Origin: Apostichopus japonicus
Taxonomy: Eukaryota; Echinodermata; Holothuroidea; Aspidochirotida; Stichopodidae
Assembly (NCBI RefSeq): GCF_037975245.1
Contig: NC_092573.1
Location: 6,015,501-6,079,500, forward strand
Reading direction: 5' to 3'
DNA: 64,000 nt
The notes under the pieces are model-generated. The model was given only the letters and a program-made list of their open reading frames with translations. It ran no database searches and had not been told where the DNA came from. Positions 6,275 to 63,497 of this stretch are shown here, piece after piece (position 1 is the first letter of the stretch; each line of letters starts with the position of its first letter). Made by a program: the position numbers and the translations under genes.

Positions 6275-6348
6275 TTACATGTTACTCGTCACGAGGCCCA
6301 TCGCGAGAGAGACTGTGACCAGATACAATGCACCAAAAAGGATATTAC
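6275..6348 (-). CDS. Gene A exon 6, terminal hydrophobic exon
   Basis: A pyrimidine-rich tract ends in TTGTTAG and opens a phase-1 exon starting [10 protein letters not shown] and ending ...TSNM then TAA. The 23 residues are almost all hydrophobic or small and are the C-terminus, after a Ser-Ala-Gly-Gly stretch that could serve as a GPI omega region. The exon is identical in B, which supports it as real coding sequence. Confidence 0.6.
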
Positions 6349-7494
6349 CTAACAAAGAAAGAAAAGAGAGAAGTTGCTATATGTTGTAAGCTTATCGTAA
6401 TTAATATTCAAGTTTATAAAGCTCTTTGCACATTTCAAAGTGTTATTTATCTATCATATGATTATCATTTCGATGACAATTGGTCTTTGTAATCATGGTC
6501 ACAAGCATTAGGGGATGGGATAGGGGGAGGGGGTGGAAAGGAGACCGGAATACCGTAACAAGAATTTTTCTCCTTATATCTTCAGAGGATTCGTTCATCC
6601 CTCATATTGATCTATATACGGGATATGTTGAATGATTGGTTATGTTTTGCCTTTGACTATCACTCACCTGCACTGCATTTTGGTTCGTTGTTCCATAAAC
6701 CAGTATCCTGACATGTTATAACTTCGGTAGTGATGTCACCGCCATCTCCAATAGTGAAACCTTCATCACATTCCACCGTTGTTGTATCATTTGCGTAGAC
6801 AAAAGCAGTCGGACCTTTCCCATTTTCAATGTCAAAGGTTCCACATATTACTAATTTAACAATAAAAAAGAAATCATTTTTTTCCCACACTGAATGTTAT
6901 TACTGACTGTAACATGTATAACACAACGCGTGTAAACAATATATAATCTTGACAAGTGTTCCTTAAACCTTCACTTTATATAATTACGTTCCTGTTGCAG
7001 CCTTTTTACCATTATACGCTTTGAGCATAACTTTATTACTTATGCATACAGCTCTCTACCACGTGGAGTCCCTTTCTAGCCAGTGCCCAGGGGAAGGGGT
7101 GGGGTGCGTTGTACCCCAGGTTATAAGACAGACTGCTCGAGACTAACCATTAGTGGTGGTCCTATTTAGCACTATTAACCGTTTGCGTTCCTCGATGCAA
7201 GGTTGTACCTTTAGTGAGATGCTCCTAGACAGTTACTAAATGTATATTATTATTCAAATCATTTGCAAAATATCTCACCGATACACTTCGGCAAATCTAC
7301 AGGATCCCATACACCTGGGGCTTTGCATGTTGCATTGGTTGGACGGCTTTGTTTGTTTTCACCACTGCAAGTAAATTGCACCACTACGTCAAAGTCAATC
7401 ACGTCACCACTGGGATTTATCGTGACGTCATCACCGAAGTCACTTGTTGAGCAATTGCCTATCAAGAAAGGAATATTATTACAAAGTGAATGTA

Positions 7495-7580
<86 letters not shown>

Positions 7581-7603
7581 GGCTATACACAGGCTATATA
7601 AAG

Positions 7604-7676
<73 letters not shown>

Positions 7677-7830
7677 CGGCGATCATCAGACAACTCGAGT
7701 TACAACATGCTGTAAATTACAGTATAGGTATACAATATTATATTTTCTATACATCTATGTAATGCGCACTATTGCAGCAGGAAGTGAATTGAATCTTTGT
7801 TATAAATAAGATATATATAAAATATACTAT

Positions 7831-7875
<45 letters not shown>

Positions 7876-7891
7876 CATATATATATATATG

Positions 7892-7928
<37 letters not shown>

Positions 7929-10900
7929 TAAGATTCTATTCATTCGTATTGACATTATACAATTCGTTAACAAAAAATAAACCTCCTTATTAAACAGGGA
8001 AAAGTTGATCACATCATCTTGGCTACGTTTGTATGACTAAACGGCACGTGATTGTCGGCTCAGTACTATAATCGTGCAACATTGTAGTATTCTAAAATAT
8101 CCAGGCTATGTTTAAATGTGTGTAATGATTACAACAGTAGAGTGACAATGATGTTATAAAGCTTATACTTACCACATGATGTGCTCAGGTTTACTGACCA
8201 TGTACCTTCTAGACATTGTATGGGCACGACTTCGGCTGATACACCCCTACAAGTAGCATTAGCATTAGCTTGGTCGGCGTAACAAGCGTCAACGATTGGA
8301 TCGAGCGTGTAACTCGAGTGTACAGCGGTCTTTGAACATCCTTTTCAAAAGGGGGATACAGAAGTTGGCAAAATGTTTGAAATGATAATGTATTTGACCA
8401 TATTCTCTTGCCGACACACCATTGCATGTAAATTTTCGTTAACAATAAATCAAGGGACTATATGGACGCAATAAGAAACACAACTACCCTTACTCAAATT
8501 CCATATCTGGTTTTATATCTGGCTATATCTGGATAGATAAAGTTTGATATGGCCATATAAAGCCAGATATATCTTGATATAATTGTAATCCAGATATCCA
8601 TATCAAGTTTGATATGGCCATATAAAGCCAGATATAACTGGATATAGAGTCAATCCAGATACGCATATAAAGTTTGATATGGCCATATAAAGCCAGATAT
8701 ATCTTGGTATAATTGTATTCCAGATATCCATATCAAGTTTGATATGGCCATATAAAGCCAGATATATATTGGTATAATTGTAATCCAGATATCCATATCA
8801 AGTTTGATATGGCCATATAAAGCCAGATATATATTGGTATAATTGTAATCCAGATATCCATATCAAGTTTGATATGGCCATATAAAGCCAGATATAGCTG
8901 GATATAGAGTCAATCCAGATGCGCATATAAAGTTTGATATACAGTAGCCATATAAAGCCAGATATTGGTATAATTGTAATCCAGATATCCATATCAAGTT
9001 TGATATGGCCATATAAAGCCAGATATAACTGGATATAGAGTCAATCCAGATACGCATATAAAGTTTGATATGGCCATATAAAGCCAGATATAACTGGATA
9101 TAATTGTAATCCAGATATCCATATACATTTTGATATGGCCATATAAAGCCAGATATAACTGGATATAGAGTCAATCCAGATACGCATATAAAGTTTGATA
9201 TGGCCATATAAAGCCAGATATATCTTGGTATAATTGTATTCCAGATATCCATATCAAGTTTGATATGGCCATATAAAAGCCAGATATATATTGGTAAAAT
9301 TGTAATCCAGATATCCATATCAAGTTTGATATGGCCATATAAAGCCAGATATATATTGGTAAAATTGTAATCCAGATATCCATATCAAGTTTGATATGGC
9401 CATATAAAGCCAAATATATCTTGGTATAATTGTATTCCAGATATCCATATCAAGTTTGATATGGCCATATGAAGCCAGATATATCTTGATATAATTGTAT
9501 TCCAGATATCCATATCAAGTTTGATATGGCCATATAAAGCCAGATATAACTGGATATAGAGTCAATCCAGATACACATATTAAGTTTATCTGGCCATATA
9601 AAGCCAGATATATCTTGATATAATTGTTAGCTAGATATCCATATCAAGTTTGATATGGCCATATAAAGCCAGATATAACTTGATATAATTGTAAGCCAGA
9701 TATGCATATAAAGTTTGATATGGCCATATAAAGCCAGATATATCTAGACAATCCAGATAGGCATATAAAATTTTATCTGGCCTAATAAAGATATAAAGCC
9801 AGATATAACTGGACATAGAGTCTATCCAGATATGCAGATAAAGTTTTATCTAGCCATATATAGCGAGATATAACTGAATATACATTTAAGACTGTGTGCT
9901 CTTACATAGTGTATTTATACAGAGATATACCATGCCCTATGTTTAGTACTGCACATATTTTAATGGTAAAGCACCTACAGTGCACACTACTAGTCAGAGG
10001 GGGTATAAATTGGTTACTTGATCTATCTGGGTTGCTAGGCAACCACAGGATGATGGAAAAAGGATGACTCAGAGGGTAATTAAGCGTGAACATGGAGGTA
10101 AAAACAGACCTCCATGGTGTGAAAACCTTCTTTGGAACAAAGGACATATGTGTATTGATACTCTGGGATCGAGTGAGATAGGAAAACAGTTTACACATGG
10201 AAGGGGTAGAGAACAGAAGGAAATTTAATAGAAAGAATTGGAAGGGTGACTGGGTGATGGAGATTCGTAAAAAATAACCTATTGAGTTAGGACATTGGCA
10301 AAGGATTCTATAGTGAACTGAACAGTCAGAAGTAAGGAAGAATATTTTTGGAACGGATGGAAACAACATATTTGGGACTGATCTTCAATACTGAATGGAA
10401 CATATATCGCCCTCCTGGAACTTATTTACTAAAGCAAATATATCAAATACGGAAAGAGCACACTGCAATTTAATATCAACCTCTACAGGACCACAGAAGA
10501 ATAAAGAACTCAGCCTTCAAGTATTTTATTGAACAGCAGTCAGTTTATGACCATAGCAGTCGGATTAGGTAACAGCAAGGAGCTTTTTGAGCGATATGTT
10601 TGAGGCCAAAACTGCAGATTCTTAAGTCCAAGATAAGTTGATCTTTACCTCCAAGTAAGCCCTGCTTTTTTTGGTCTAATTGTCTGGAGATGGGTTTTTT
10701 CAGACACAATTTGAAATGATTTTGAAATCTCTCTCTAGTTGGAAGCATTGTGAGTCATAAATAAAACTATGTGTCACAAAAAAAAGTTATGTACACAATT
10801 GGGTTTGGAATGTGCTGGGAATAAAGTAATCCCAACTTTATGTCTACTCTTCGTCATTGTTTTGAAAGTTGTGTCGATGAAAAGGACTCGCAGACCTTGC

Positions 10901-13900
10901 AGAGACTGAAGACAGCATAGAGACGGCAGAGTGATGGGCATTTTGTCATGAAGCAAGCTTTCGAGTGCCAATTTATTCGTGGACCACTTTATCATGCCAG
11001 GATATTTTATTCTCTTAACCATGTATTTTTGTTCTGACGGTCATATTGCCTCAATAATCGTCTGAACAGAAGACCCTTTTTTAATATTAGTTTATTATTT
11101 GTAAAGGCTTGGACATACTGTGGGTAAGGTGAAACAAGAAAAAGAAAAATACCTGCTGATGGATCAAACAGGAAATGTAATTAATGGCCAGATAATTAAG
11201 CAGTAAATAAAGAGTTGCTTTATATGAGCCATATATTGCCCTTATTTGGTTTCAAATTATATTTCTTTACAATCGCCAGATGAAGTTCTGGCACGGATGA
11301 AGCCACTTTTTTTAACTAGTTCAATCTGGATTTATCATAATATGGGACAGTAATGGATTTGCCAAGGGCAATATATATGGATGTGGCATATATGAGCCAG
11401 ATATGGATTTGCCATATATGAGCCAGATATGGATTTGCCATATATGGGCCAGATATGGATTTGCCATATATGGACCATATCTGGTCCAGATAAAAAGTGA
11501 CCCATATAAAGTTTTATCTGAGGCAGATATGGCCTTTATCTTATATCAAGTTATATCTGCCCAATTCTTGATATGGCCAGATATAAATTCCATATATGGC
11601 ACAGATATGGGCCAGATACAAATTGCAATATATGGGCCAGATATGGATTTGCCATATATAAGCCATATATGGATCTGCTATATATGGGCCAGATATGGAT
11701 TTGCCATATATGGGCCAGATATGGATTTGCCATATATGGGCCAGATATGGATTTGCCATATATGGACCATATCTGGTCCAGATAAAAAGTGACCCATATA
11801 AAGTTTTATCTGAGGCAGATATGGCCTTTATCTTATATCAAGTTATATCTGCCCAATTCTTGATATGGCCAGATATAAATTCCATATATGGCACAGATAT
11901 GGGCCAGATACAAATTGCCATATATGGGCCATATATGGATTTTGAGTAAGGGTATTTAATAATAAAACAACAAATACATGATCAAAAACCTGGCTTGTCA
12001 GACTTGTGTCACTGTAACAACAATTGGAAAGCAAGGTTTTCTCTACTTAAAAAAAATAAATAAATAATTAAATAAAACAAAAAGAGAAACACAACCACGA
12101 CAAACAAAGACGAACTCAAATACACACAAAACCAAACGATGCTATATGTTGTTATACTGCTTCATCACACGAGGGATAAAATTATTCCGGGACGAATTGT
12201 CTTCAGTTTAGCATACTTATATAGCAAATTTAGTGGGCGCTATAATGGTCTCTCCAAATATTTCCTCTCGTTAAAGTCTCAATGTGTGTTTGCCAAATTT
12301 TTCCTTAGACCATTCCAGCTAACTGCACTGATTGCTCAGTGAAAATAACACCGTTCTTTGCAATTTTTATATAAATAATCCTTAATTTTATTGAGTTATT
12401 AGTCCCTTAATATTTTGAGCTGAATTAAATTCGCCAGATTATTTAACGAGTCCGTAGAATCTGCAATTTCAATCAAAATTTGCAAGCCCCGCCCAACAGA
12501 TCATGCGCCAATCAAATCTCTCTGTTTTGTTTACGACCGTTATAGGCTAGGCTAATTTTAACTTTCGTGGTTAGTCTATGTTAGGTCAATTCTTTTGAAT
12601 AGTATCTTTCTTTCGGTCTTTACCGATGTAGATTGAGAAATTGTGTCATTTCCTTCCATTGCAAGGAATAAACAGGTGTTTTCAAACGTTTCCTCCGTGA
12701 AATTGGGTCAAAACTGGACGATACGAGTATATATAATATAGGTTACATTTGTGTAATGAACATGCTGATATGGGCGGTCGCAGTGATCTTACCGTAAAAC
12801 GTTCGCGCCATAAGGGCAACAGAAAATAAATTCCTTTCTTTCGATTGCGACAGCTTTTCTCCATTAAACCCACCTAGTCAGAGTGCATTAAGAATAAGAA
12901 ACATTGAATCTGCTTCGGAAGTTTGTTTTCCGAAATTCATCAGAAAACACGTATTGTTATCATTACATTGTATAGAGACTGGATAATGTTAACGCAGTTC
13001 GAATCATATACGCATCATAGCCTATATATATATATAATACTTCATAGCGAAGAGGGAGTGGCCTTAAGGTTGCTGGAAAAGACTCCCGTATAGGGGATCG
13101 GGTAAGAGATCGAGAAAAGGGTCATCCGCAGCATTGGTTCCAAATTTATTGTAATTTTCTGTCTTTCTTTGAGCTACAAATGTTAGATTGTACGGTGTGA
13201 GTGGTATACGATGTCTCAGAACCGTGGAAATATAGTGTAAATTGACATGTTTGGTCGACATTTCGATTAACTTTGATGAAATTTCCGCATTTGATATGAA
13301 ACTTTGTTTCTTCTATCCAAAAATTTTCTTTTGTTTGATCCCAAGATTTCAAAATTCTCCATCTCAAAAATTTTGGAATTTGCTATTTGAATTTTGATTA
13401 AAACGTTTGATCTGAAACTCTCGATTCTTATTATCTCGAAATTAAGAATAACATCTCGGAATGTTAAACATTTTTATCTCAAAATTCCTTTTTTCTTCTT
13501 TCATTCTTTCACTTACAAGTACATTAAAATCGAGCAGGTGATTTTGGTAAATTCGATGCTTCTAACCGAAGAATCTCCGAAAATTATCTTCCTAGTTACA
13601 AAAGTGGAGAAAGACTCTCCACTCTTCCCTAACCACCACCCCCCCCCTACCCTCGCTGCTATCCAGCCCGTGTCTACGTCAATAGGCAGGGATGGGATGA
13701 TGTGTGAAAGTGGGGGGGGGGAGGGGCACCTGGTGTAGATGTTAAGAAGAGGGGGTGAGAATTGTTTGGATTTAATCAAGCCAGTATAAGATGTGATATG
13801 GTGCGATATTTATAGGTTATTTACCAGTACTATAGTTGTGTATTAAAAATGTAATTATGCTATCTGCATAAAAGTGTTGCCAGATTTATTAAGCGACAGA

Positions 13901-16021
13901 AAAAAAGTAACAAATGATTTTAAATAAGAATCGTCACAATGGGTCGATCATTTTTTGTAGCTTTTTATCGCAGAGTTGTCAGTATCGCTGTGGCATAACC
14001 AACCAACTAACCGACCGAATTGGATAACAAAGCCAACTCCAGGTCTTGGGGACATTGGGAGGGTAAAGTGCCTTGACCACCCCCCCCCCCTCCCCCCTCG
14101 TAATCCCACTTTCAGAATACACATTTTGTTGCAGTTATACCGGCAGATAATTGATAGTGCAGTTAGCTTAACATAGCAGCCTCTCGAAATGGTGAAATCC
14201 AAACTTTGAAGAAAAAAATTAACAAAGATAAAAGCAGATTTTGAGTGTTCCTTACCTCCATCTGGACAGTCTCCTTCACTGGTAGCTGTGACAGCAGAAA
14301 ACAAAGCATTTATTAATAAGGCTCTCAAAGTTCAATACATAAAGGGGGAGACAAATTTCAAATACCCCGACCGAGTATGGAAGGAACTTGAAGATTTATG
14401 GAAAAGCCAGGGTCAACAGGAAGGGTGTTATGTGATCTTTAGTGATCCACCCCCCCCCCCCAAAAAAAAGAAAAAAAAAACAACATGAAAAGTTTAGACG
14501 TCAAATGATGCATACTGAGACACATTCAGAATATACATTGTACTAATAAATACTTTAGAATGTTTGAGTGAGATTAAAGGAGTTAAGAGGAGGAGGGAGG
14601 ATCAACCATTGGAACAGCGCCTCATGGCGTCCAGGGCCTGATCGATGTCGAGGAGAGGGCGGGAGGGAAAGGCCATCTGCACTATACCTTTTAAGCATGT
14701 CACTGCAATGCCACTGGATATATCATCGTTTTTTTAATTTTCTTTTACTTTGATCTCATTACTTTTATGCAATCTACCGTATATAAGAATGACCGTTTAC
14801 AACCGACCTTAACGGAAACGAATTTCCTAACATTTTTCAATGTCAAATATGTAACTATGCTAACCGAACGACGGGGAACTCGTCAGAATATGTCATGCGG
14901 GAAACATCAGCTTAGAACATTTTAGTGCCGACGTGTCTATTGCAAATTCCACATAGACCTTCGTGTCTACTGCAATCTCCATATAGACCTATGCTAAAAA
15001 TGTAGCGGTTCAATGTGTAACATTCATAACAGCTGTAATGTCATTTTAAGCAGAAACATAATATTTTGTTTTTAATTTGATCCGTGAAGGGCAGCTGTAA
15101 ATATCTGATATTAAAATATTGATCTGTTTGAATGCCTTCTTTTTTTATGGGGGGGGGGGGGTGGGGGACCACAGTAGATTGGCTAGTCCTTGACAAGTTT
15201 GATACTAAATAAACAGAACTAAAAAATGTGATTTTTTATGTAGAAAATTTAGAAGGTTTAATGACTAATTCATTTCGTCAATGAACTGAAAAAAAGGTAG
15301 GGTTATAGACTTATTAAGAAATTGAGATTTGAAAAATATGTGGAAACTCGAAACCTTATTCGTCAAAATCATGAAAATAGATCGTCAGAAAGAACTTGAT
15401 TTATTAATCTAATAACATTTCATTGCCTTTTTATTCTTAATGTTCATGTTTGGCTATAAATATTATCATTACATGAAAGATTGAGTTTATGCAGTGCCCA
15501 CCCCCACCCCGTCCCCCTCACAATCAACCAAACAAACACACGCACACAAGCGTTAATGACACGTATTCTTAAAACGTGTATCATCTTATCACCCATCTGA
15601 AACAGAATCAACGTTAGTAACATTTCCAGTGTAACCGCATAGTCGCATGGTGTATATACTATTCTACCATTTCTCTTTAAGTGCACAGAAACTTTCAAAT
15701 CATCGTTTCATAATAACATCAACTATTTTCAAGCATGGTTCTATATTCACATCAACATTTTTAAAAATGACAGTCTTATCAGTGACCGGCTTTAACACTA
15801 AATATCTCGTTTCTAGTTTACACAACGAAACAAACCTGTTGCCATATATTCTATAACGTTGCTGAAGGTTGATTTTTTAACATTGGAGATTGGTATAACT
15901 TTCATAGATAATATCTATTAAAATCCATATCAAAGATACGAGAAAAAAAAGAAGGAATTCTTTACTCACCAAAAGTGCCGAACAGAATAAAGACGACGGA
16001 TACACAAAACTGAAGATTCAT
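6275..16021 (-). CDS. Gene A: three-sushi protein with hydrophobic C-terminus
   Basis: Six coding exons on the minus strand: 15970-16021, 14256-14285, 8173-8340, 7279-7458, 6668-6850 and 6275-6348, giving 687 nt or 228 residues. In order: hydrophobic signal peptide ([15 protein letters not shown]), a short linker with one Cys, three sushi (CCP) domains of about 56-61 residues each, then about 23 hydrophobic residues ending the protein. Every intron is phase 1 with GT donor and AG acceptor, and the same six exons recur in gene B. Sushi domains bind proteins or glycans outside the cell. The C-terminus suggests a GPI signal or a short membrane tail (inference). Intron 2 carries a 3.47-kb transposon-like insertion. 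The first three domains match the N-terminal layout of genes C and D, so A looks like a short relative of those receptors. Confidence 0.75.
6668..6850 (-). CDS. Gene A exon 5, sushi domain 3
   Basis: 61-codon sushi exon, phase 1-1, from [10 protein letters not shown] to [15 protein letters not shown] precedes the last Cys. Acceptor AAATTAG, donor GTGAGT. Confidence 0.8.
7279..7458 (-). CDS. Gene A exon 4, sushi domain 2
   Basis: 60-codon sushi exon, phase 1-1, from GNCSTSDFG to LPKCIG, with GVWDP before the final Cys. Acceptor TTGATAG, donor GTGAGA. Confidence 0.8.
7499..7925. repeat. Cluster of (TA)n tracts in gene A intron 3
   Basis: Runs at 7499-7580, 7614-7672 and 7838-7925. The matching gene B intron has only about 85 bases of such repeats (19665-19750). 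Confidence 0.88.
8173..8340 (-). CDS. Gene A exon 3, sushi domain 1
   Basis: Single-exon sushi domain from CSKTAV to STSCG with a Trp before the last Cys. It has five cysteines rather than four; the extra one (ACYADQ) is shared with B, C and D. Donor GTAAGT. Confidence 0.75.
8520..9890. repeat. Left subterminal array, 65-bp units
   Basis: About 21 units at a 65-bp period (GGCCATATAA at 8551, 8616, 8681, 8746 and on). Each unit has the palindrome ATATGGCCATAT and CCAGATAT motifs. Divergence between units is low. Confidence 0.85.
9900..11384. other. Unassigned centre of the insertion
   Basis: Unique sequence with minus-strand open frames at 9902-10369, 10545-10748 and 10774-11022. None shows a transposase motif I recognise. 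It could be a decayed or spliced transposase gene, or filler in a non-autonomous element. Confidence 0.4.
11385..11940. repeat. Right subterminal array, 26-bp units in a 292-bp duplication
   Basis: GGATTTGCCATATATGGGCC repeats every 26 bp. A longer block starting at 11461 recurs 292 bp later at 11753. CCATATATGG palindromes echo the left array. Confidence 0.8.
12484..12522. promoter_or_regulatory. GC box next to CCAAT box inside gene A intron 2
   Basis: GCCCCGCCC and GCCAATCAAATC lie about 20 bp apart in a local GC-richer patch, and the same in gene B at 20819-20850. Could be an internal promoter; could be chance. Confidence 0.2.
14256..14285 (-). CDS. Gene A exon 2, 30-nt single-Cys exon
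   Basis: Acceptor ...GTCACAG, donor GTAAGG, phase 1-1, codes [10 protein letters not shown]. Exactly 30 nt, as in B, C and D, always with one cysteine. Confidence 0.72.
15970..16021 (-). CDS. Gene A exon 1, signal peptide
   Basis: ATG at 16021 (reading down) with A at -3, 17 codons plus one base, then a GTGAGT donor. The coded peptide is strongly hydrophobic. Gene B exon 1 differs by one residue (Gln/His at position 4). Confidence 0.75.
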
Positions 16022-16164
16022 GATTTTAATTTTATTGTTGACTTGTTTTGTTTTGTTTGAAAGACAAAAACGTGTGTACACTTCTTGCTAAGTTATTGCA
16101 ATGCGTTCGCTCCTGATGTTTCGATACGAATGATTTAAGTTTCAATAACGCATTTACAAACCGT

Positions 16165-16185
16165 AGACGAATAATTTATAATAGG
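16165..16185 (-). promoter_or_regulatory. TATA-like box upstream of gene A
   Basis: CCTATTATAAATTATTCG about 150 bp upstream of the ATG. Gene B has CCTATAATAAATTATTCG at the same place. Conservation is expected from recent duplication, so support is modest. Confidence 0.3.
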
Positions 16186-16227
16186 TTATTTTTGAATATG
16201 ACATATGGATATATGGTGGCCGTGTGC

Positions 16228-16640
16228 AAAAAACAGGGTTAGTTGAGGGCGCAATAAGTTTAGACATCAATAGTTAAGATTTGCACCGAACAGAACTATC
16301 TATATATGTTTGTTTGTCTGTCTGTCTATCAAAAAACAGGGTTAGTTGAGGGCGCAATCAGTTTAGACATCAATAGTTAAGATTTGCACCGAACAGAACT
16401 ATCTATATATGTTTGTTTGTCTGTCTGTCTATCAAAAAACAGGGTTAGTTGAGGGCGCAATAAGTTTAGACATCAATAGTTAAGATTTGCACCGAACAGA
16501 ACTATCTATATATGTTTGTTTGTCTGTCTGTCTATCAAAAAACAGGGTTAGTTGAGGGCGCAATATGTTTAGACATCGATAATTAAGATTTGCACCGAAC
16601 AGAACTATCTATATAAGTCTATCTGTCTGTCTGTCTATCT
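16228..16640. repeat. 103-bp minisatellite upstream of gene A
   Basis: Four copies starting at 16228, 16331, 16434 and 16537, each beginning AAAAAACAGGGTTAGTTGAG and ending in TGTCTGTCTATC. Gene B has a single divergent copy at about 24500-24570. It lies some 200 bp upstream of the gene A ATG. Confidence 0.85.
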
Positions 16641-16673
16641 ATCTGTCTGTCTGTCTGTCTGTCTTTCTGTCTG

Positions 16674-16724
<51 letters not shown>

Positions 16725-16850
16725 GTCTGTCTATCTATCTATCTGTCTATCTATCTAGCTATCTATCTATCTGTCTGTCTGTCTGTCTGTCGGTCGGTCT
16801 GTCGGTCTGTCTATCTGTCTGTCTATCTGACTGACAGACAGACAGACATA
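16620..16850. repeat. TCTG/TCTA tetranucleotide tract at duplication junction
   Basis: Long mixed TCTG, TCTA and TCGG tetranucleotide run. A similar tract at 4645-4850 lies at the matching edge of the other copy. Confidence 0.85.
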
Positions 16851-18444
16851 AGTATAGATTTTCCCAGTACAATTTAATTTCTTTGTGGGAGGGGGATTGG
16901 TTGGTAAAGATTTGTGGGCCTAGCACGCCCCCTACTCCGCCCCACCCCCCCCCCCCTTGACTAGGCCACTGGCATGCATACTTTTGTTCTTGTCTGTTGA
17001 GGATCTCAGTGCGCAGGTATTCGAAACCAAATATTTCTTCGAATTTTGGTAAAGGTGTCTCTGAAGTGTAACACATACACATGCACAAGAAATAAAATGC
17101 TGGATATGCCAATAGAATGGACATAGAGTTGTTTATTGAGTGACAATAGCTGAACCATATGAACTTTTACGTGCATCTGCTTCATTGTATAGTCCACTGT
17201 AAGTTTGTACATCCACTGTTAGTTTGTACAATTGCGTAATCAGTTTTCAACACATTTAAAGCAGAAGAAATACCAAAAAAAAAAGAAACTTTCAAATCAA
17301 CTGGGAGGTTTTATTTTAAGAAGCTGAAAAAGTACAATTTGAATAAGAAAATGAGCAAAATATACAGAAGTATACTTTAAATTTTCTTAAGCTTTTTTTT
17401 TTTTTAATTTGATAGCTGGAAAATATCTATTTGTGGCTACTTTTAATGTTAACTTTTGAAATCTGTGATCAATATTTGATCACCAAAAATACATTATATT
17501 GGATTAACGTGTATACTTTATACCTAATAATAAAATTGCCACTACAACAAAAGGTAGGAAAATACATTCAATGTTTACATGGTAACCAGTGTACTATTTA
17601 CCAGTCGGTACATAAGTAATGACATTTACATCGACTTTGAAAACCTCATTCACTGCACCTTATTGTCTTCAATGCCTTTCAAGCTGTAAATTTTCTCTCA
17701 ATTTTCCTTCTCATTATAACCGAAAAAGTTTAATGTACACTATTAACCTAAGAAATATTGGAAGAGTAATCTGACCCGCATAATATTCACCAAAGTATAG
17801 GCCTATATATATGTATCTATGCGCTGGACATTATACTATCCCACGAAATGACAAAAATGATATATAGTTCCATTGGTGTCAAACCAACTCACTTCAGTAT
17901 CTGCCAGTTTGTCCCATGTAAAATGTCATTTTGTTACCTGAAACGAAGAGTGCATCAAGTCTGTCCCGCTCATACGGGAGAATTGGGGGGGGGGGGTAAG
18001 GAGAACGTGCCCCTAAGTTCATCATTTAGAAGTGCCATTTTTTTTAATGAAATGTACCTTTGTCCAGCACCTCATTTATACGAATATGATAATATGGTAT
18101 GTTCTGAAATTAAATCAAGTTCATTGCGTCAAATCACCACTTTGATAGATAAAAATGAAATTGCGACTCAGTTTAGATTCAAATTCACGTAGTCCTCCGA
18201 GCAAGTTTTGTTAGGCTGCTCTTCATATGGACCTAATCAAACTTCAGTCTCTAAGCTACCTTGAAAATGCAGATAATTAAGTTATCTATTCACTTGAAGT
18301 ATACATAAAATTAAAATTAAAATTTAGATACCGGCAGACTACATGAAAACTGTGTAATACTAGAAACAGACAAATATAAAATTATATGGAGCAACCATAA
18401 TTTTCTGCAAGTTTCGCAAGACATGCGGGCTACAGCTAGACCCG

Positions 18445-18518
18445 TTACATGTTACTCGTCACGAGGCCCATCGCGAGAGAGACTGTGACCAGATACAATG
18501 CACCAAAAAGGATATTAC
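18445..18518 (-). CDS. Gene B exon 6, terminal hydrophobic exon
   Basis: Identical to gene A exon 6 in sequence, acceptor and stop codon; codes the hydrophobic C-terminus. Confidence 0.6.
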
Positions 18519-19661
18519 CTAACAAAGAAAGAAAAGAGAGAAGTTGCTATATATGTTGTAAGCTTATCGTAATTAATATTCAAGTTTATAAAGCTCTTTG
18601 CACATTTAAAACTGTCATTTATCTATCATATGATGATCATTTCGATGACAATTTGTCTTTGTAATCATGGTCACAAGCATTTAGGGGGATGGGATAGGGG
18701 GGTGGGTTGGAAAGGAGACCGGAATACCGTAACAAGAACTTTTCTCCTTATATCTTCAGAGGATTCGCTCAACCCTCATATTTATATATATACGGGATAT
18801 GTTGAATGATTGGTTATGCTTTGCCTTTAACTATCACTTACCTGCACTGCATGTTGGTTCGTTGTACCATAGACCAATATCCAGACATGTTATAACTTCG
18901 GTAGTGGTGTAACCGTCACCTCCAAAAGTGAAACCTTCATTACATGACACCGTTGTTGTATTACTTTCGTAGGCAACAGCAGTCGGACCCACTCCATTGT
19001 CAATTTCAAAGGTTTCACATTTTGCTAATTCAACAATAAAAAAGAAATCATTTTTTCCCACACTGAATGTTATTACTGACTGTAACATGTATAACACAAC
19101 GCATGTAAACAATATATAATCTTGACAAGTGTTTCTTAAACCTCCACTTTATATAATTACGTTCCTGTTGCAGCCTCTTTACCATTATACGCTTTGAGCA
19201 TAACTTTATTACTTTTGCATACAGCTCTCTACCACGTCGAGTCCCTGTGTAGCATGCCAACGGGAAGTGGGTGGGGTGCGTTGTACCCCAGGTTATAAGA
19301 CAAGCTGCTCGAGACTAACCATTAGTGGTAGTTCTTTTAAGCACTATTGACCGTTTGCGTTCCTCGAAGCAAGGTTGTACCTTAGGTGAGATGCTCCTAG
19401 ACAGTTACTAAATGTATATTATTATTCAAATCAATTGCAAAATATCTCACCGATACATTTCGGCAAATCTACAGGATCCCATACACCTTGGGTTGTGCAT
19501 GTTGCACTGGTTGGACCGCTTTGATTGAATCCATTACTGCAAGTGAAGTTCACCATTACGTCAAAGTCAATCACGTCACCACTGGGATTTATCGTGACGT
19601 CAGCATCGAAGCTACTTGTTAAGCAGCCTATAAAGATAGGAATATTATTCCAAAGTTAATG

Positions 19662-19696
<35 letters not shown>

Positions 19697-22600
19697 CATA
19701 TATATATTTATATATATTTATATATATTCATATATATATTCATATATATTTGTATGACATTATACCATTCAGTAACAAAATTTAGACATTCCTTATTAAA
19801 CCAGGAACAATTGATCACATGCACGTCATCTTTGCTACGTTTGTATGACTAAACGGCACGTGATTGTCGGTTCAGTACTTTAATCGTGCAACATGGTAAT
19901 ATTCTAAATCATCCAGGCTACTAGTTTAAAGGTGTGTAATGATTACAACAGTAGAGTGACAATGATGTTACAAAGCTTATACTTACCACATGATCTGCTC
20001 AGGTTTACTGACCATGTACCTGCTAGACATTGTATGGGCACGACTTCGGCTGATACACCCCTACAAGTAGCAGTAGCTTTTTCTTGATCGGCGTAACAAT
20101 CTAACTCTGGAACGAGCATGTAACTCGAGTGTACATCGGTCATTGAACATTCTTTTCAAAAGGGGGAAACAGAAATTGGCAAAATTTTTGAAATGATGAA
20201 TGTATTTGAACATATTCTCTTGCCGACACACCATTACATGTAAATTTCGTTAGCAATAAATCAAGGAACTATATGGACGCAATAGGAAACACGACTATTT
20301 AATAATAGGACAACAAATACATGATCAAAAACCGGGCTTGTCAGACTTGTGTCACTGTAACAACAATTGGAAAGCAAGGTTTTCTCTACTTCAAAAATAA
20401 ATAAATAATTAAATAAAACAAACAAAGAAACACAAACAAAGACGAACTCAAATACACACAAAACCAAACGATGCTATTTGTTGTTATACTGCTTCATCAC
20501 ACGACGGATAAAATAATTCCCGTGACGAATTGTCTTCAGTTTAGCATACTTATATAGCAAATTTAGTGGGCGCTATAATGGTCTCTCAAAATATTTCCTC
20601 TCGTTAAAGTCTCAATGTGTGTTTTCCAAATATTTCCTTAGACCATTCCAGCTTACTGCACTGAATGCTCAGTGAAAATAACACCGTTCTATGCAATTTT
20701 TATATAAATAATCCTTATTTTTATTACAAGTTATTTGTCGTTAAATATTTTGAGCTGAATAAAATTCGCCAGATTATTAAACGAGTCCGTAGATTCTGCA
20801 ATTTCAATCAAAATTTGCAAGCCCCGCCCAACAGATCATGCGCCAATCAAATCTCTCTGTTTTGTTTACGACCGTTATAGGCTAGGCTTATTTTAACTTT
20901 CGTGGTTAGTCTATGTTAGGTCAATTCTTTTGAATAGTATCTTTCTTTCGGTCTTTACCGATGTAGATTGAGTAATTGTGTCATTTCCTTCCATTGCAAG
21001 GAATAAACAGGTGTTATCAAACGTTTCCTCCGTGAAAATGGGTCAAAAATGGACGTTACGAGTATATATAGGTTACATTTGTGTAATGAACATGCTGATA
21101 TGGGCGGTCGCAGTGATTTTACGGTAGAACGTTCGCGCCATAAGGGCAACAGAAAATAAATTCCTTTCTTTCGATTGCGACAGCTTTTCTCCATTAAACC
21201 CACCTAGTCAGAGTGCATTAAGAATAAGAAACATTGAATCTGCTTCGGAAGTTTGTTTTCCGAAATTCATCAGAAAACACGTATTGTTATCATTACATTG
21301 TATAGAGACTGGATAATGTTAACGCAGTTCGAATCATATACGCATCATAGCCTATATATATATTATATATAATACTTCATAGCGAAGAGGGAGTGGCCTT
21401 AAGGTTGCTGGAAAAGACTCCCGTATAGGGGATCGGGTAAGAGATCGAGAAAAGGGTCATCCGCAGCATTGGTTCCAAATTTATTGTAATTTTCTGTCTT
21501 TCTTTGAGCTACAAATGTTAGATTGTACGGTGTGAGTGGTATACGATGTCTCAGAACCGTGGAAATATAGTGTAAATTGACATGTTTGGTCGACATTTCG
21601 ATTAACTTTGATGAAATTTCCGCATTTGATATGAAACTTTGTTTCTTCTATCCAAAAATTTTCTTTTGTTTGATCCCAAGATTTCAAAATTCTCCATCTC
21701 AAAAATTTTGGAATTTGCTATTTGAATTTTGATTAAAACGTTTGATCTGAAACTCTCGATTCTTATTACCTCGAAATTTAGAAAAACAACTCGGAATGTT
21801 AAACATTTTTATCTCAAAATTCCTTTTTTCTTCTTTCATTCTTTCACTTACAAGTACATTAAAATCGAGCAGGTGATTTTGGTAAATTCGATGCATCTAA
21901 CCGAAGAATCTCCGAAAATTATCTTCCTAGTTAAAAAAGTGGAGAAAGACTCTCCACTCTTCCCTAACCACCACCCCACCCCCCACACTTGCTGCTATCC
22001 AGCCCGTGTCTACGTCAATTAGGCAGGGTGGGATATGATGTGTAAAAGTGGGGGAGGGGCACCTGGTGTAGATGTTAAGAAGAGGGGGTGAGAATTGTTT
22101 GGATTTAATCAGAACCCTATAAAATGTGATATGGTGCGATATTTATAGGTTATTTACCAGTACTATAGTTGTGTATTAAAAATGTAATTATGCTATCTGC
22201 ATAAAATTGTGGCCACATTTATTAAGCGACAGAAAAAGTAACAAATGATTTTAAATAAGAATCGTCACAATGGGTCGATCGTTTTTGTAGCTTTTTATCG
22301 CAGAGTTGTCAGTATCGCTGTGGCATAACCAACCAACTAACCGACCGAATTGGATAACAAAGCCAACTCCAGGTCTTGGGGACAGTGGGAGGGTAAAGTG
22401 TCCCCTGACCACCACCGGGCCCCTCCCCTCCTAATCCCACCTTCAAAATACACATTTTTTGCATTTTACCGGCAGATAATTGATTGTGCAGTTAGCTTAA
22501 CATAGCAGCCTCTCGAAATGGTGAAATCCAAACTTTGAAGAAAAAAATTAACAAAGATAAAAGCAGATTTTGAGTGTTCCTTACCTCCATCTGGGCAGTT

Positions 22601-24292
22601 TCCTTCACTGGTAGCTGTGACAGCAGAAAACAAAACATTTATAAATAAGGCTCTCAAAGTTCAATATATAAAGGGGGAGACAAATTTGAAATACCCCGAT
22701 CGAGTATGGAAGGGACTTGAAGATTTATGGAAAGGCCACCAATAAACAACATGAAAAGTTTAAGTCGTCAAATGATGCATAATGAAATACATTCAGAATA
22801 TACATTGTACTAATAAATACTTTAGAATGTTTGAGTGAGATTAAAGGAGTTAAGAGGAGGGGGAGGATCAACCATTGGAACAGCGCCTTATGACGTCCAG
22901 AGCCTGATCGATCTCGAGGAGAAGACGGGAACTTTGGAAAGGCCATCTGCCCCTACCCTTTGGGCATGCCACTGCAATGGATATATCATCGTTTTTGACT
23001 TTTCTTTTACTTTGATCTCATTTCTTTTATGCAATGTACCGTATATAAAAACGACCTTTTGCAACCGGCCTTAACGGAAACGAATTTCCTAACATTTTTC
23101 AATGTCAAATATGTAACTATGCCAACCGAACGACGGGGACCTCGTCAGAATATGTCATGCGGGAAACATCAGCTTAGAGCATTTTAGTGCCGACGTGTCT
23201 ATTGCAAATTCCACATAGACCTTCGTGTGTACTACAATCTCCATACAGACCTATGCTAAAATATGTAGCGGTTCAATGTGTAACATTCATAACAGCTGTA
23301 ATGTCATTTTAATTAAAGCAGAAACATAATATTTTGTTTTTAATTTGATCCGTGAAGGGCAGCTGTAAATATCTGATATTAAAATATTGATCTGTTTGAA
23401 TGCCTTTTTTTTATGGGGGAGGAGGGGGGGGGAGGTGGGGGACCACAGTAGATTGGCTAGTCCTTGACAAGTTTGATACTAAATAAACAGAATTTAAAAA
23501 ATTGATTTTTGACGTAGAAAATTTAGAAGGTTTATTGACTAATTCATTTCGTCAATGAACTGTAAAAAGGGTAAGGTTATAGACTTATTAAGAAATTGAG
23601 ATTTGAAAAAAATATGGAAACTCGAAACCTTATTCGTCAAAATCATGAAAATAGATCGTCAGAAAGAACTTGATTTATTAATCTAATAACATTTCATTGC
23701 CTTTTTATTCTTACTCTTCATGTTTGGTTATAAATATGATCATTACATGAAAGATTGAGTTTATGCAGTGCCCAACCCCACCCCTTCCCCTTCACAATCA
23801 GCCAAACAAACACACGCACACAAGCGTTAATGACACGTATTCTTAAAACGTGTATCATGTTATCACCCATCCGAAACAGAATCAACGTTAGTAACATTTC
23901 CAGTGTAGCCGCATAGTCGCATGGTTTATATACTATTCTACCATTTGTCTTTAAGTACACAGAAACTTTCAAATCATCGTTTCATAATAACATCAACTAT
24001 TTTCAAGCATGGTTCTATATTCACATCAATATTTTTAAAAATGACAGCATTATCAGTGACGGGCTTTAACACTAAAAATCTCGTTTCTAGTTCACACAAC
24101 GAAATAAACCTGATGCCTTATATTCTGTAACGTTGCTGAATGTTGATTTTTAACATGGAGATTGGTATAACGTTCATAGATAATATCTATTAAAATCCAT
24201 ATCAAAGATACGAGAAAAAAAGAAGGAATTCTTTACTCACCAAAAGTGCCGAACAGAATAAAGACGACGGATACACAAAAGTGAAGATTCAT
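18445..24292 (-). CDS. Gene B: three-sushi protein, tandem duplicate of A
   Basis: Six exons on the minus strand: 24241-24292, 22585-22614, 19987-20151, 19451-19627, 18842-19024 and 18445-18518, totalling 681 nt or 226 residues. Same architecture as gene A: signal peptide, 30-nt Cys exon, three sushi domains, identical hydrophobic C-terminal exon. Introns are nearly the same as in A (21399-21702 translates identically to 13064-13367 in two overlapping frames), which shows a recent duplication. The three sushi exons, however, differ at many amino acids and carry two single-codon deletions relative to A. B lacks the 3.47-kb insertion of A intron 2 and keeps the empty TA site at 20296-20297. Confidence 0.75.
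18842..19024 (-). CDS. Gene B exon 5, sushi domain 3
   Basis: 61-codon sushi exon from KCETFEIDNG to NEPTCSAG, donor GTAAGT. 22 residues differ from gene A. Confidence 0.8.
19451..19627 (-). CDS. Gene B exon 4, sushi domain 2
   Basis: 59-codon sushi exon from GCLTSSFDADV to LPKCIG, phase 1-1. One codon shorter than gene A, about 15 replacements apart. Confidence 0.8.
19665..19750. repeat. (TA)n-rich tract in gene B intron 3
   Basis: TATATA with TTTATATATA variants. Confidence 0.85.
19987..20151 (-). CDS. Gene B exon 3, sushi domain 1
   Basis: 55-codon sushi exon from ECSMTDVHSS to SRSCG with the extra fifth Cys (LDCYADQ). One codon shorter than gene A and about 12 replacements apart. Confidence 0.75.
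22585..22614 (-). CDS. Gene B exon 2, 30-nt single-Cys exon
   Basis: Codes ATSEGNCPDG, phase 1-1, donor GTAAGG; one replacement (Asp/Asn) against gene A. Confidence 0.72.
24241..24292 (-). CDS. Gene B exon 1, signal peptide
   Basis: ATG at 24292, codes [17 protein letters not shown] plus one base, GTGAGT donor; matches gene A exon 1. Confidence 0.75.
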
Positions 24293-25850: not shown

Positions 25851-47235
<21,385 letters not shown>

Positions 47236-50144: not shown

Positions 50145-50229
50145 ATGAAGCACGATGCTGTTTTTCAAATGTCTTCGACAGTCTTCGTTCGTTCTGCACT
50201 AGGGGTTTTTCTGCTATCTATAGTTCTGG
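50145..50229 (+). CDS. Gene D exon 1, signal peptide
   Basis: 28 codons plus one base, MKHDAVFQMSSTV then a hydrophobic run GVFLLSIVLG; GTGAGT donor. A second Met at codon 9 could also start a shorter signal peptide. Confidence 0.75.
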
Positions 50230-53200
50230 GTGAGTTATTTGATTGCACTGTTTAAGAATTCAGTAGATTTGTTTTACCTTTGCGATGTATGATTTCCATT
50301 GTTTCAATCATGGTTTTAACTCAATATTTGGCCTTATGCATAAGTGATTTCCTGTACAAAAAGTTAACATTCATGGTCATGCAAGTTCTACAGGTATGTC
50401 CTTATTAGAAATTGAATCCATTCACGACGAGTATTTAAAGCCGCAAAACAAAAATAGTATTAATCCATTAATTAACAGATTAATTTTATTATTGATCTTT
50501 TATTGCGAATCCAAGTTTATCTGAGTGGGTAGACAGCCGATAGAAATCTACAACCTCAGGTTTAGAAAGTCGTCTAAACATTCGAAAAATAAGCAAGACG
50601 ATTAGTTCAAAAATATTTTCTGTTCTAGAAATGCGCTGGATAAAGTTTCAACTATTTCTACAATTTCCAAAACTGTGCTCTTAACAGTGTAACATATATG
50701 TGCCACTTTTCTTTTGTTTAACAACAGGCTTAACACAAGGGCAGTGTTTATCAATAGGTAAGAATTTTCGGAATATAAAGTTTACCTCTGCATTTAAATA
50801 TATGACGACGTATTTGGTAAATCGAATGAATATTTAGTAGATTCAAAATCTTTCCAAAGGATGTTTATACAACGTTTGTCAAATATTCATATGCTTATAG
50901 AACATTTTTAATATTATTAGTATATAAGTGAAAGTATCAATTTAACAGTGAAATAAAGTTCACGTATCTCGTATATGCATGGACACTATTACAACTTGCT
51001 TATCAAGATATGTCCATTATATGTATTTGCAGAACAACATTGATTTTATATATGTAACTAATGTGTGCGTACTTCATATTTTCAGTAGGCAGGAGTGCGA
51101 TGGGCTTTGGTTAGTTTCATCATGTTACAAGAAAGCTACGACCTGTGTTAAAAGAACATTTCATGATGTCAATTGTTCTTTAACCATCAATGCATATTAG
51201 TTTCGAATAATGATGCGTATATATACATTTTACGTAACACAATACATAGCAAGTTGTCACACTTGGCAGAGTTATACCTGAAAGTTAGAGACACAAACCT
51301 ACCGCCAACTTATGAAGATTATTGATGTCCTACAACACCAATATACACAATTACTACTGTAAATATTAAAGTTTTGTACCAAAGGAAAAACTGGATCGTG
51401 CTATAATTCAGTAGCATGTTCTATTAAGATTACAGTAAGAACTGAAGATATGTGTAATTCCAACAAATCCAGTTGCTAGGATTTGTTGGGATAACACATA
51501 TCCTCAGTTTTTACTGTAAACCTAATGCATGCATGCTATCGATTTATCATATTTGTTAGCGGCATCCAGTATTGATTGTGGTACAAAACTTTAAGATTTA
51601 CAGTTGTTACTATATCTCTGTGTGAATCGATTGCCTATAACCAAATAAAGAACACATTAATAGCTACGCAAATATATTCATCGGCATCATTTGCCAGTTG
51701 AGCAATTTCATGCAATATCACATATTTAATAAGTTAGACTTTACATATTTTGAACGACATAGCCTTTATTGTCTTTAAAATTTGTATAATTAAATCTGCT
51801 TGGTATTTATTTTATTTTTCAATTTAGCATATTATCAATTAAATTGTACGGTTAATACATTGTATCTTAAAGCAGGATATTCTAATAGTTATTGATAAAT
51901 ACGCCAGTCATGTAAGTGACTAAAGTTTTGTCCTTCCAACAATGCTGATCACATACGCTCAAAACCTCTTTAAATCTTGCAAGTTGACTCTATGACGTGG
52001 GGTAGAACCGTGACTTCATCCCTGCAATATTTAGGAATCGTGCTGATTTTGAAGTGTAAAGTTTTGATTAACATCTTAACATATTTGATATAAACTGTAA
52101 AACGAATGACACGGTCCATGAACGACGATAGATTGAAACAATTCTATTCAGTTCATTCTTTATATTAAGTTGCGATATATTTGGATGCTCTGATGTACAT
52201 TCAATGGAACATAACATAATGACTGTAATGTCAGCACACTGGTGTTAAGTTGTAACATGGTGATCTTGTCCCTGACATATACTACTCTGGTCACCTTACA
52301 TTCTGAAACAGATGACGTTCTGTGGATAAGCATGCACGGTTAATGATAAGAACATGATATCAGTATAAGCGTGCTATTACGTTTTGTTGACGTGCAAATT
52401 TTATTACCAGAGTGTGAAGCAACTTACTTCGACCCTGATCTAGTCATTACACCAAATCAGGATTGTTTTGCGGATGGTTCATCGGTTACTCTCTCTTGCT
52501 CGGTTAACCTTGGCGGACCACCATTTAACACTTGCGACAATGGCACATGGGAATTTCCATCGGCCTCGTGCGATGGTATGTACATACGACAACTAATTTG
52601 ACCATCAGAATATCCGAACTGTTCAATATATTGAAATATATTGTTTGATTCCTCGTGATGTTAAACATTGCAATTATCAGAGTTCACATTACAAGAGTAG
52701 AAGTATACCCTAACCAGTATATGCTGTTGTTTATACAATGTGGTTGATGAACACTTATACACACGGTATTTGACGGTATGCAGGAATTCTCTTTGTATCA
52801 TCGGTCATTAATTCTGGAAGAATAGATAACAATAATAATTAAATGTGAATGAACCGTTTGAATATCATATATGGTAATCTGATTTCTCAGGATTTACATG
52901 CGCTCGACCTATTGTTGGAGACAGTGTTGTCGTAACGCCGGACAAACTCACGTATTTAGCAAGAGAAAGTGTTAACTTTTCATGTGTTGCCAACAACTTG
53001 ACGGGACCAAGCATGGCTTCCTGTGGGCCCGGTGGGATATGGGAACCAAATCCGTTACCTGTTTGTGAGAGTAAGTCATGCATTTATAGTTGTTATACAA
53101 TGGGTATTTTATGCTTTCATGTATATATTATGACGTGCATCATCCCAATCAGTGGTGACGACGCTCATTATCAAGCTGATGACACATATTTGGAAGCACA

Positions 53201-63141: not shown

Positions 63142-63497
63142 GTAATAATTCTTCCATGATCTCACTTTCCCTAATCACATCAATTTTTCAGCGGTTTCAT
63201 TCCTTTTTGGCTATTTAGACATTCCTGAATAGTACGCCGAGTGTTTCCTGGCCAAGGCTGTAGTCGAGTCAATCAGATCCAAGTTGGAGTCAAAGTCCCA
63301 GAATTTTCCGAGTCCATAGCAGGTCTTGTAAGAGTCTACTAACAGCCAAAGTCCATTTTCAAAACCAGGCTATGTACACTTGACTTCGATATCTCTTACC
63401 ATAGTTCTCCTCACACCACCACCTCATACCCATTTATATCGCATCTCTGTCCATGGTTTAACAAAACCTAGAACACGTTTGATTTGTTTCAGTTCAG

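Follow-up and report, generated by a model that had tools for sequence, protein, structure and literature searches.

Diversifying selection on the sushi exons of a tandem gene pair in the sea cucumber Apostichopus japonicus

Why do two neighbouring genes of Apostichopus japonicus, here called A and B, differ so strongly in their sushi (CCP) exons when their end exons are nearly alike? A sequence-only reading of the window, a stretch of 64,000 nucleotides of contig NC_092573.1, had proposed that these exons are under diversifying selection. Rebuilding of the exons has shown that A and B each form a complete gene of six exons on the minus strand with GT/AG borders and intact reading frames of 228 and 226 residues, respectively. 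Exon 1 of A (15970..16021, 52 nt) encodes the start codon and signal peptide, exon 2 (14256..14285, 30 nt) is a microexon with one cysteine, exon 3 (8173..8340, 168 nt) encodes CCP module 1 with an extra cysteine, exons 4 (7279..7458, 180 nt) and 5 (6668..6850, 183 nt) encode modules 2 and 3, and exon 6 (6275..6348, 74 nt) encodes a hydrophobic C-terminal tail and the stop codon. B consists of a signal peptide exon (24241..24292), the microexon (22585..22614, 30 nt), exons for modules 1 (19987..20151, 165 nt), 2 (19451..19627, 177 nt) and 3 (18842..19024, 183 nt) and the same tail as A (18445..18518). The mean hydropathy of the tail is 2.1 over its best 19 residues and no basic residue follows; the tail is probably a cell-surface tether, formed either by a GPI anchor or by a transmembrane segment that leaves hardly any residues in the cytoplasm. 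GPI-anchored proteins have small omega residues, a polar spacer and a hydrophobic tail at the protein end; when the A/B tail is read by eye for this signal, the spacer is not polar. Downstream of A, the stretch at about 5450-5950 has no homology to the corresponding stretch of B, and this downstream part lies outside all tests described below.

Sushi is the sole Pfam match above the cut-off in A and B. PF00084 (Sushi, cut-off 20.7 bits) matches A with 26.2 bits in one stretch (162-202) and B with 32.1 bits in two stretches, the best at 108-140. The four cysteines and the tryptophan before the last cysteine are invariant across an alignment of 19 modules, including all six of A and B. A single-module model of CCP3 encoded by exon 5 of A has a pLDDT of 92.8; its comparison with the PDB gives 210 matches at E up to 10, none of them below 0.001 (best E 4e-3), and the best matches are mostly CCP-containing complement proteins. 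A full-length AlphaFold model of A, built on a five-row alignment, reached a pLDDT of only 28.7 and was set aside.

Codon alignment of A and B has shown that 12 of 55, 15 of 59 and 22 of 61 aligned codons are replaced in exons 3, 4 and 5, respectively, that 6 further codons differ only silently and that there are 2 indels of one codon each, confirming every hand count of the sequence-only reading (12, 15 and 22 replacements, two indels and about six silent changes). Its further observations, that the signal exon and the 30-nt exon differ by one residue each, that the terminal exon is identical and that the cysteines are kept, also hold: all 15 cysteines of A, one of which lies in the signal peptide, are present in B and in the database protein P0001. 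The amino-acid excess is thus confined to the sushi exons, within which exon 3 is no more changed than exons 4 and 5 (12/55 vs 37/120, p=0.28).

In this single gene pair, on which the DNA-level test of selection rests, dN is 0.158 and dS is 0.072 over exons 3-5, giving an omega of 2.20 (bootstrap 1.15-5.6), and joint fitting of the three exons by likelihood gives an omega of 3.06 (likelihood ratio p=0.004). Per-exon tests (F3x4) give p=0.04 each for exons 4 and 5, and the omega excess of exon 3 by itself is not significant (p=0.40). A Fisher test with silent sites as the sole reference gives p=0.020; this test and the likelihood ratio, both resting on silent sites, are of moderate strength. 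Non-synonymous changes in exons 3-5 (58/408) exceed the changes in the near introns (54/839, p=9e-6), and the silent changes of the same exons (8/117) match those introns (p=0.84). The near-intron total conservatively includes intron 3, whose masked divergence of 0.12 cannot be relied on owing to misaligned AT repeats. When each changed codon is counted once, the excess persists against introns 4 and 5 (49/408 vs 33/650, p=4e-5). Neutral simulations at rates of 0.056 and 0.066, with 4000 runs each, never exceed 35 and 39 replaced codons, respectively, vs the 49 observed. As a local control, the first three CCP exons of two neighbouring receptors, X and Y, were compared; these three exon pairs show an omega of 0.30, indicating purifying selection, and differ from exons 3-5 of A and B at p=2e-5, the control pair being the older one (dS 0.39). 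Diversifying selection is therefore supported by the codon tests, the intron comparison, counts robust to multi-base changes and the local control, and neither a dN/dS at or below 1 in exons 3-5 nor a near-intron divergence matching that of the exons, the outcomes that the sequence-only reading had named as contrary, was seen. The sushi-module protein sequence of A and B has changed two to three times faster than would be expected without selection.

Three explanations would account for this pattern in another way. Intron 2 of A contains a tract without substitution relative to B (12798..13435 on the minus strand, ends approximate), which spans 636 aligned positions with indels ignored, whereas the longest such run in 5000 permutations is at most 325 positions; the tract likely arose by gene conversion. 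Within it, 13064-13367 and 21399-21702 are the same base for base over 304 nt. The identity of this stretch in two translated frames, reported by the sequence-only reading, is true, but it says nothing on coding because the DNA itself is identical. The tract suggests that conversion occurs, and conversion could have homogenised the introns and end exons while leaving an older divergence in exons 3-5 with no positive selection. However, conversion restricted to the flanks predicts a high silent divergence in exons 3-5, and the silent divergence there equals that of the near introns, so this escape route is not supported; introns 4 and 5, which lie around the most divergent exon, diverge by 0.046-0.058, and such a history is already disfavoured and very improbable. 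The high amino-acid change between A and B might also mean that one copy has come under relaxed constraint or become a pseudogene, but the frames and splice sites of both are intact, the cysteines are kept, and relaxation would leave omega close to 1. Sequences simulated neutrally at the intron rate acquire, over the two copies, roughly one stop codon and fewer replacements, and this explanation is scarcely credible. A and B could instead be two haplotypes of one gene that the assembler set in tandem, since an intron divergence of 3-6%, intron 3 aside, although high, could be met with between alleles in a marine invertebrate. Against this, the listings of P0003, an A-type protein, and of P0002, a B-type one, both name a contig of 1,000,031 bases. 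This suggests a second assembly in which a single scaffold carries the two types, and an assembly artefact is quite unlikely.

The origin of the pair is illuminated by X and Y, which we label sushi-7TM, adhesion-GPCR-like receptors. The first five exons of X are predicted from sequence at 43732..47235 on the minus strand, with the signal exon at 47175-47235 (61 nt), the microexon at 46397-46426 (30 nt), CCP1 at 45287-45451 (165 nt), CCP2 at 44213-44392 (180 nt) and CCP3 at 43732-43905 (174 nt). Those of Y, likewise predicted, are transcribed divergently on the plus strand at 50169..54194, with the signal exon at 50169-50229 (61 nt; a further open ATG lies upstream, at 50145), the microexon at 50728-50757 (30 nt), CCP1 at 52411-52575 (165 nt), CCP2 at 52891-53070 (180 nt) and CCP3 at 54021-54194 (174 nt). 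More CCP and 7TM frames follow downstream on the same strand in each case, including PF00002 frames at 28298..28663 (minus strand) for X and 62829..63218 (plus strand) for Y. A GAIN match below threshold lies at 30056-30457 in the X region, and the strand and order of the 7TM and GAIN frames suggest that they form one gene with the X sushi exons.

All four genes have a signal exon, a 30-nt microexon with the cysteine codon at the same place and three sushi exons, all in phase 1. The exon lengths in A, B, X and Y are 168, 165, 165 and 165 nt for CCP1, 180, 177, 180 and 180 nt for CCP2, and 183, 183, 174 and 174 nt for CCP3, and the extra CCP1 cysteine occupies the same alignment column in both pairs. 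Against the six CCP1-3 modules of X and Y, the best-scoring partner of exon 3 of A and B is CCP1, and that of exon 4 is CCP2. When a wider set of 13 X/Y modules is ranked by shuffle z-score, the top partner of A exon 3 is a different X module, near 41.6 kb, and in both A and B exon 5 pairs best with Y modules other than CCP3; the score of the module near 58.4 kb is unreliable because it was cut at the wrong cysteine. Collinearity with X and Y is thus clear in the exon plan and in CCP2 and fair in CCP1, but it is not seen in CCP3. X and Y are predicted to go on to 7TM, whereas A and B end at the hydrophobic tail exon with its stop codon, so A and B are relatives of this receptor family rather than members, and the common 5' plan makes it most likely that they are truncated relatives of sushi-7TM receptors without the 7TM part. 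The shared plan of the first five exons and the purifying selection on three sushi-exon pairs of X and Y are new here, as are the differences in exon 3 from two database proteins.

These two proteins are A. japonicus gene models, compared as proteins only. B differs from P0002 at 11/51, 1/59 and 1/61 residues in exons 3, 4 and 5, and A differs from P0003 at 24/51, 3/60 and 10/61, an exon-3 excess with p=3e-5 and p=8e-7, respectively; cysteines are kept at 12 positions within the columns compared. Because the differences are greatest in exon 3, the outermost module may be hypervariable, and P0002 and P0003 may be paralogues rather than alleles. P0001 ('isoform X2') equals A over exons 2-6, whereas its exon 1 codes for the residue found in B, and full-length B protein was absent among the matches of the protein searches run. 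No protein reading through from B exons 1-5 into A exons 3-6 emerged from a search of 4286 candidates, whose sole match at E up to 1e-5 was P0001, and a profile search of 4122 candidates found no relatives beyond A. japonicus at E up to 1e-3. In the library searched, the literature on sushi or complement-receptor proteins of sea cucumbers and A. japonicus yielded nothing on the pair.

The contrast between the fast A/B modules and the constrained sushi modules of their neighbours suggests that A and B take part in a biological arms race as recognition proteins. We consider it probable, at about 60%, that A and B are surface-tethered truncated relatives of sushi receptors that diversify as recognition or decoy proteins, a reading inferred in part. 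Tandem duplicates with a signal peptide, a cysteine microexon, three CCP modules and a hydrophobic tail would expose a CCP surface that binds a partner which itself varies. A microbe or its surface molecule would be the most likely partner, followed by a complement protein or a self/non-self ligand; CCP1, the outermost part, would vary most between animals, and duplication with local gene conversion would supply the variants. All introns of A and B are in phase 1, so every combination of their exons is in frame. On this ground and in view of the make-up of P0001, the two might be interchangeable ectodomain cassettes of a single recognition locus that varies between individuals and derives from a sushi-7TM receptor, a reading that is doubtful.

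A more familiar role is that of a complement regulator resembling vertebrate DAF/CD55, in which A and B would shield self cells through binding of activated C3 or factor B and diversify as pathogens exploit or mimic them. CD55 is GPI-anchored, and regulators of the RCA family (DAF, MCP, CR1) are characterised by C3b/C4b binding with decay or cofactor activity. Like CD55, A and B have few CCPs and a short hydrophobic tail, a plan that fits a regulator; among the PDB sequences that match B are CR1, CR2, factor H, beta-2-glycoprotein I and, weakly, DAF, and the fold matches of module 3 include modules of MASP-1, C1s and factor H. Complement C3 and Bf have positive values in a differential-expression table for skin ulceration syndrome of A. 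japonicus (PMC4906609). However, CCP similarity does not prove regulation, since PMC6683126 describes CR2 and B5R as all-CCP proteins without it and gives regulators of the RCA type an M5-M3-M1-M2 motif order in three CCPs. A constant self partner such as C3 would not alone suffice for an omega above 1, and A and B, unlike DAF/CD55, carry extra cysteines in the microexon and CCP1, which may pair, while their binding to C3 is hypothetical; a regulatory role is thus possible at best. The strong CCP1 differences between A. japonicus proteins would also suit allorecognition or gamete recognition, with A and B as individual-specific surface markers selected for diversity, and polymorphic sushi proteins of tunicates provide precedents (PMC3549757, PMC12065747, PMC9265791). 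PMC12065747 describes the Botryllus fester family as sushi-containing, polymorphic, polygenic surface proteins, and 15-27 codons of fester have an omega above 1 (PMC3549757); however, fester has an Ig domain and three TM segments (PMC12065747), and A and B show only sushi in Pfam. Ciona vCRL1 (variable complement receptor-like 1) is likewise a sushi-domain protein that varies among individuals, but it is a tunicate protein with a reported role in the blood system, likened to A and B by description rather than sequence, and it is reported to have no part in self/non-self recognition at fertilisation (PMC9265791). A marker function is accordingly unlikely.

The pair offers a compact, testable case of an echinoderm recognition-type protein under diversifying selection beside conserved receptors that resemble it. 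If A and B do act as decoys, they would show that one exon plan can serve both a receptor under constraint and a rapidly evolving relative tethered to the cell surface. Interchangeable cassettes with a hypervariable CCP1 would form the echinoderm equivalent of the individuality receptors of tunicates. Should CCP1 prove polymorphic in populations, it would offer a way to study how microbes or kin are discriminated in sea cucumbers, which are farmed and suffer disease losses.

Mapping of the replaced sites on a CCP structure, which the sequence-only reading had proposed, was carried out for module 3: 4/21 strand positions and 17/39 other positions are replaced, a loop bias that is not significant (p=0.088). 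In CCP1 and CCP2, not in CCP3, positions -2 and -4 before the second cysteine, which we take to point inward, are kept and positions -3 and -5 are changed, a pattern that is suggestive only.

The divergence between genes A and B, neighbouring duplicates on the minus strand with three sushi (CCP) modules each, is concentrated in the exons encoding these modules. Both A (16021–6275) and B (24292–18445, upstream of A) are complete and have six exons with GT/AG borders throughout, in the order of a 52-nt signal exon, a single-cysteine microexon of 30 nt, three sushi exons and a 74-nt tail exon that encodes a hydrophobic C-terminus. Exons 2–5 have lengths in multiples of three, and every intron is in phase 1. 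There are five N-glycosylation sequons in A and four in B, and two are at positions common to both. Directly upstream of A (16227–16639), inspection by eye shows tandem repeats with a unit of about 103 nt, followed by tetranucleotide repeats; one similar unit lies upstream of B near 24500.

Exact counting reproduces the hand counts of the sequence-only reading: 12 residues are replaced in exon 3, 15 in exon 4 and 22 in exon 5, and there are six silent-only codons and two single-codon indels; exons 1 and 2 have a single replacement apiece, and exon 6 has none. For exons 3–5, the Nei-Gojobori method gives a dN of 0.158 and a dS of 0.072, and so an omega (dN/dS) of 2.20 (bootstrap 95% interval 1.15–5.6, with dN not above dS in 0.65% of 2000 replicates; Fisher p = 0.020). 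Pairwise maximum likelihood with our own GY94 script gives an omega of 3.06 under F3x4 (p = 0.0038) and 3.19 under equal frequencies (p = 0.0027). Omega by exon (F3x4) is 1.93 for exon 3 (p = 0.40), 3.93 for exon 4 (p = 0.040) and 3.49 for exon 5 (p = 0.039), and therefore exons 4 and 5 carry the selection signal, exon 3 only pointing in the same direction between A and B. The pooled exons 1, 2 and 6 have an omega of 0.77 (p = 0.84).

The introns provide a neutral yardstick. Their masked JC divergence is 0.044, 0.033, 0.058 and 0.046 for introns 1, 2, 4 and 5, and 0.120 for intron 3, which is inflated by AT repeats. Non-synonymous sites in exons 3–5 (58/408) differ more often than the pooled near introns 3–5 (54/839; p = 9e-6), whereas silent sites (8/117) show no excess over the same introns (p = 0.84); against all introns plus an upstream stretch (198/4608), the p values are 1e-13 and 0.17, respectively. 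When each changed codon is counted once, as a guard against nine multi-base codon changes, 49/408 still exceeds both introns 4 and 5 (33/650; p = 4e-5) and silent-only codons (6/117; p = 0.019), and the 40 single-change replacements alone exceed introns 4 and 5 (p = 0.003). Neutral simulation from A never attains 49 replacements at rates of 0.056 and 0.066 (4000 runs each) and attains them in 6% of runs when the rate is raised to 0.125, roughly double that of the introns. Therefore, the codon tests, the intron comparison and the simulation yield neither of the contrary results named beforehand, an omega at or below 1 in exons 3–5 or flanking introns as divergent as the exons.

The stretch of intron 2 noticed beforehand for its identical translation is identical DNA in A and B over 304 nt, within a substitution-free run of 636 aligned positions (permutation maximum 325, n = 5000). 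The simplest reading of this run is a recent gene-conversion tract, and a conserved element is possible. A 3466-nt insertion in intron 2 of A (8487–11952), which B lacks, holds 65-nt and 292-nt tandem repeats and has 12-nt terminal inverted repeats (CCCTTACTCAAA) flanked on both sides by TA, the empty site in B having one TA; from these features it resembles a non-autonomous DNA transposon.

Sushi frames and secretin-family 7TM frames also form two divergently oriented sets in the window, X on the minus and Y on the plus strand, which we infer to be two genes. Since Pfam gives 7tm_2 in both and GAIN only below threshold in X, "adhesion-GPCR-like" is our own label for them. Three X/Y sushi-exon pairs have omega values of 0.35, 0.34 and 0.22, and pooled they give a dS of 0.39, a dN of 0.12 and an omega of 0.30 (maximum likelihood 0.33, p = 3e-5 against omega of 1). 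The non-synonymous/silent contrast between A/B and these pairs of the older X/Y duplicates is significant (p = 2e-5), and therefore the amino-acid excess cannot be put down simply to sushi exons as such or to this locus. The 5' sushi exon regions of X and Y (43708–54222) are inverted repeats, 75–89% alike in three main pieces, and about seven 859-nt tandem units (33133–39335) lie between the sushi and 7TM frames of X.

X and Y are predicted to start with a 61-nt signal exon, a 30-nt microexon and CCP1, CCP2 and CCP3 exons of 165, 180 and 174 nt, all in phase 1. The cysteine codon of the microexon has the same position in A, B, X and Y, and the extra CCP1 cysteine of A/B and X/Y falls in one alignment column. 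Among the six X/Y modules CCP1–3, the top-scoring partner is CCP1 for exon 3 of A/B and CCP2 for exon 4; for exon 5 of A it is, weakly, X CCP3, which does not hold for exon 5 of B. In a z-score comparison with 13 X/Y modules, exon 4 again pairs with X CCP2 and B exon 3 with Y CCP1, but A exon 3 pairs with a module of X located around 41.6 kb, and exon 5 of both genes with later Y modules. The common exon plan is stronger evidence of kinship than the module scores. A and B would most simply be relatives of the X/Y receptors without the receptor part, which implies no order of origin for the two forms.

A predicted model with a pLDDT of 92.8 supports a CCP fold for module 3, and chains of MASP-1, MASP-3, C1s and factor H lead its PDB matches, whose E values all stay at or above 0.001 (4e-3 for the best). 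The best-supported mechanism, derived from one DNA sequence pair, is that A and B would act as tethered ligand binders or decoys, with a binding surface that is under pressure to change because the partner itself changes. An analogy with conflict genes suggests that this partner may be microbial; complement regulation, allorecognition and gamete recognition are each possible functions. Among the systems considered, tunicate fester and vCRL1 are nearest in kind to A/B, a likeness distinct from demonstrated relationship.

At the protein level the window agrees with A. japonicus: the three matches of the B protein at E up to 1, among 131 candidates, are all from this species. In the public A. japonicus proteins P0002 and P0003, counted without the initial alignment columns (up to 31), where the gene models start, exons 4 and 5 track B (2/120 residues differ) and A (13/121, ten in exon 5), respectively, whereas exon 3 differs at 11/51 and 24/51 residues (excess over exons 4–5, p = 3e-5 and p = 8e-7); A and B themselves show no such exon-3 excess (p = 0.28). 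Should these proteins be allelic to A and B, module 1 would be hypervariable from animal to animal, with stable A/B differences residing in modules 2 and 3; should they instead be additional copies, exon 3 is still evolving separately from its neighbouring exons. Since both are listed with a 1,000,031-base contig, they are probably on one scaffold of another assembly. The alternative that the A/B pair is a haplotype artefact is unlikely. A third public protein, P0001 ("isoform X2"), matches exons 2–6 of A residue for residue, yet its His4 is the residue of B exon 1 (24241–24292) and not of A exon 1 (15970–16021); it represents either an A allele or a transcript running from the B first exon into A.

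Elsewhere in the window, tRNA-Cys is predicted twice, each time with an Rfam tRNA match as well (47 bits), in a duplicated 350-nt repeat (1672–2118) whose flanks recur near 60.4–60.7 kb, and these are perhaps tRNA-related repeats.
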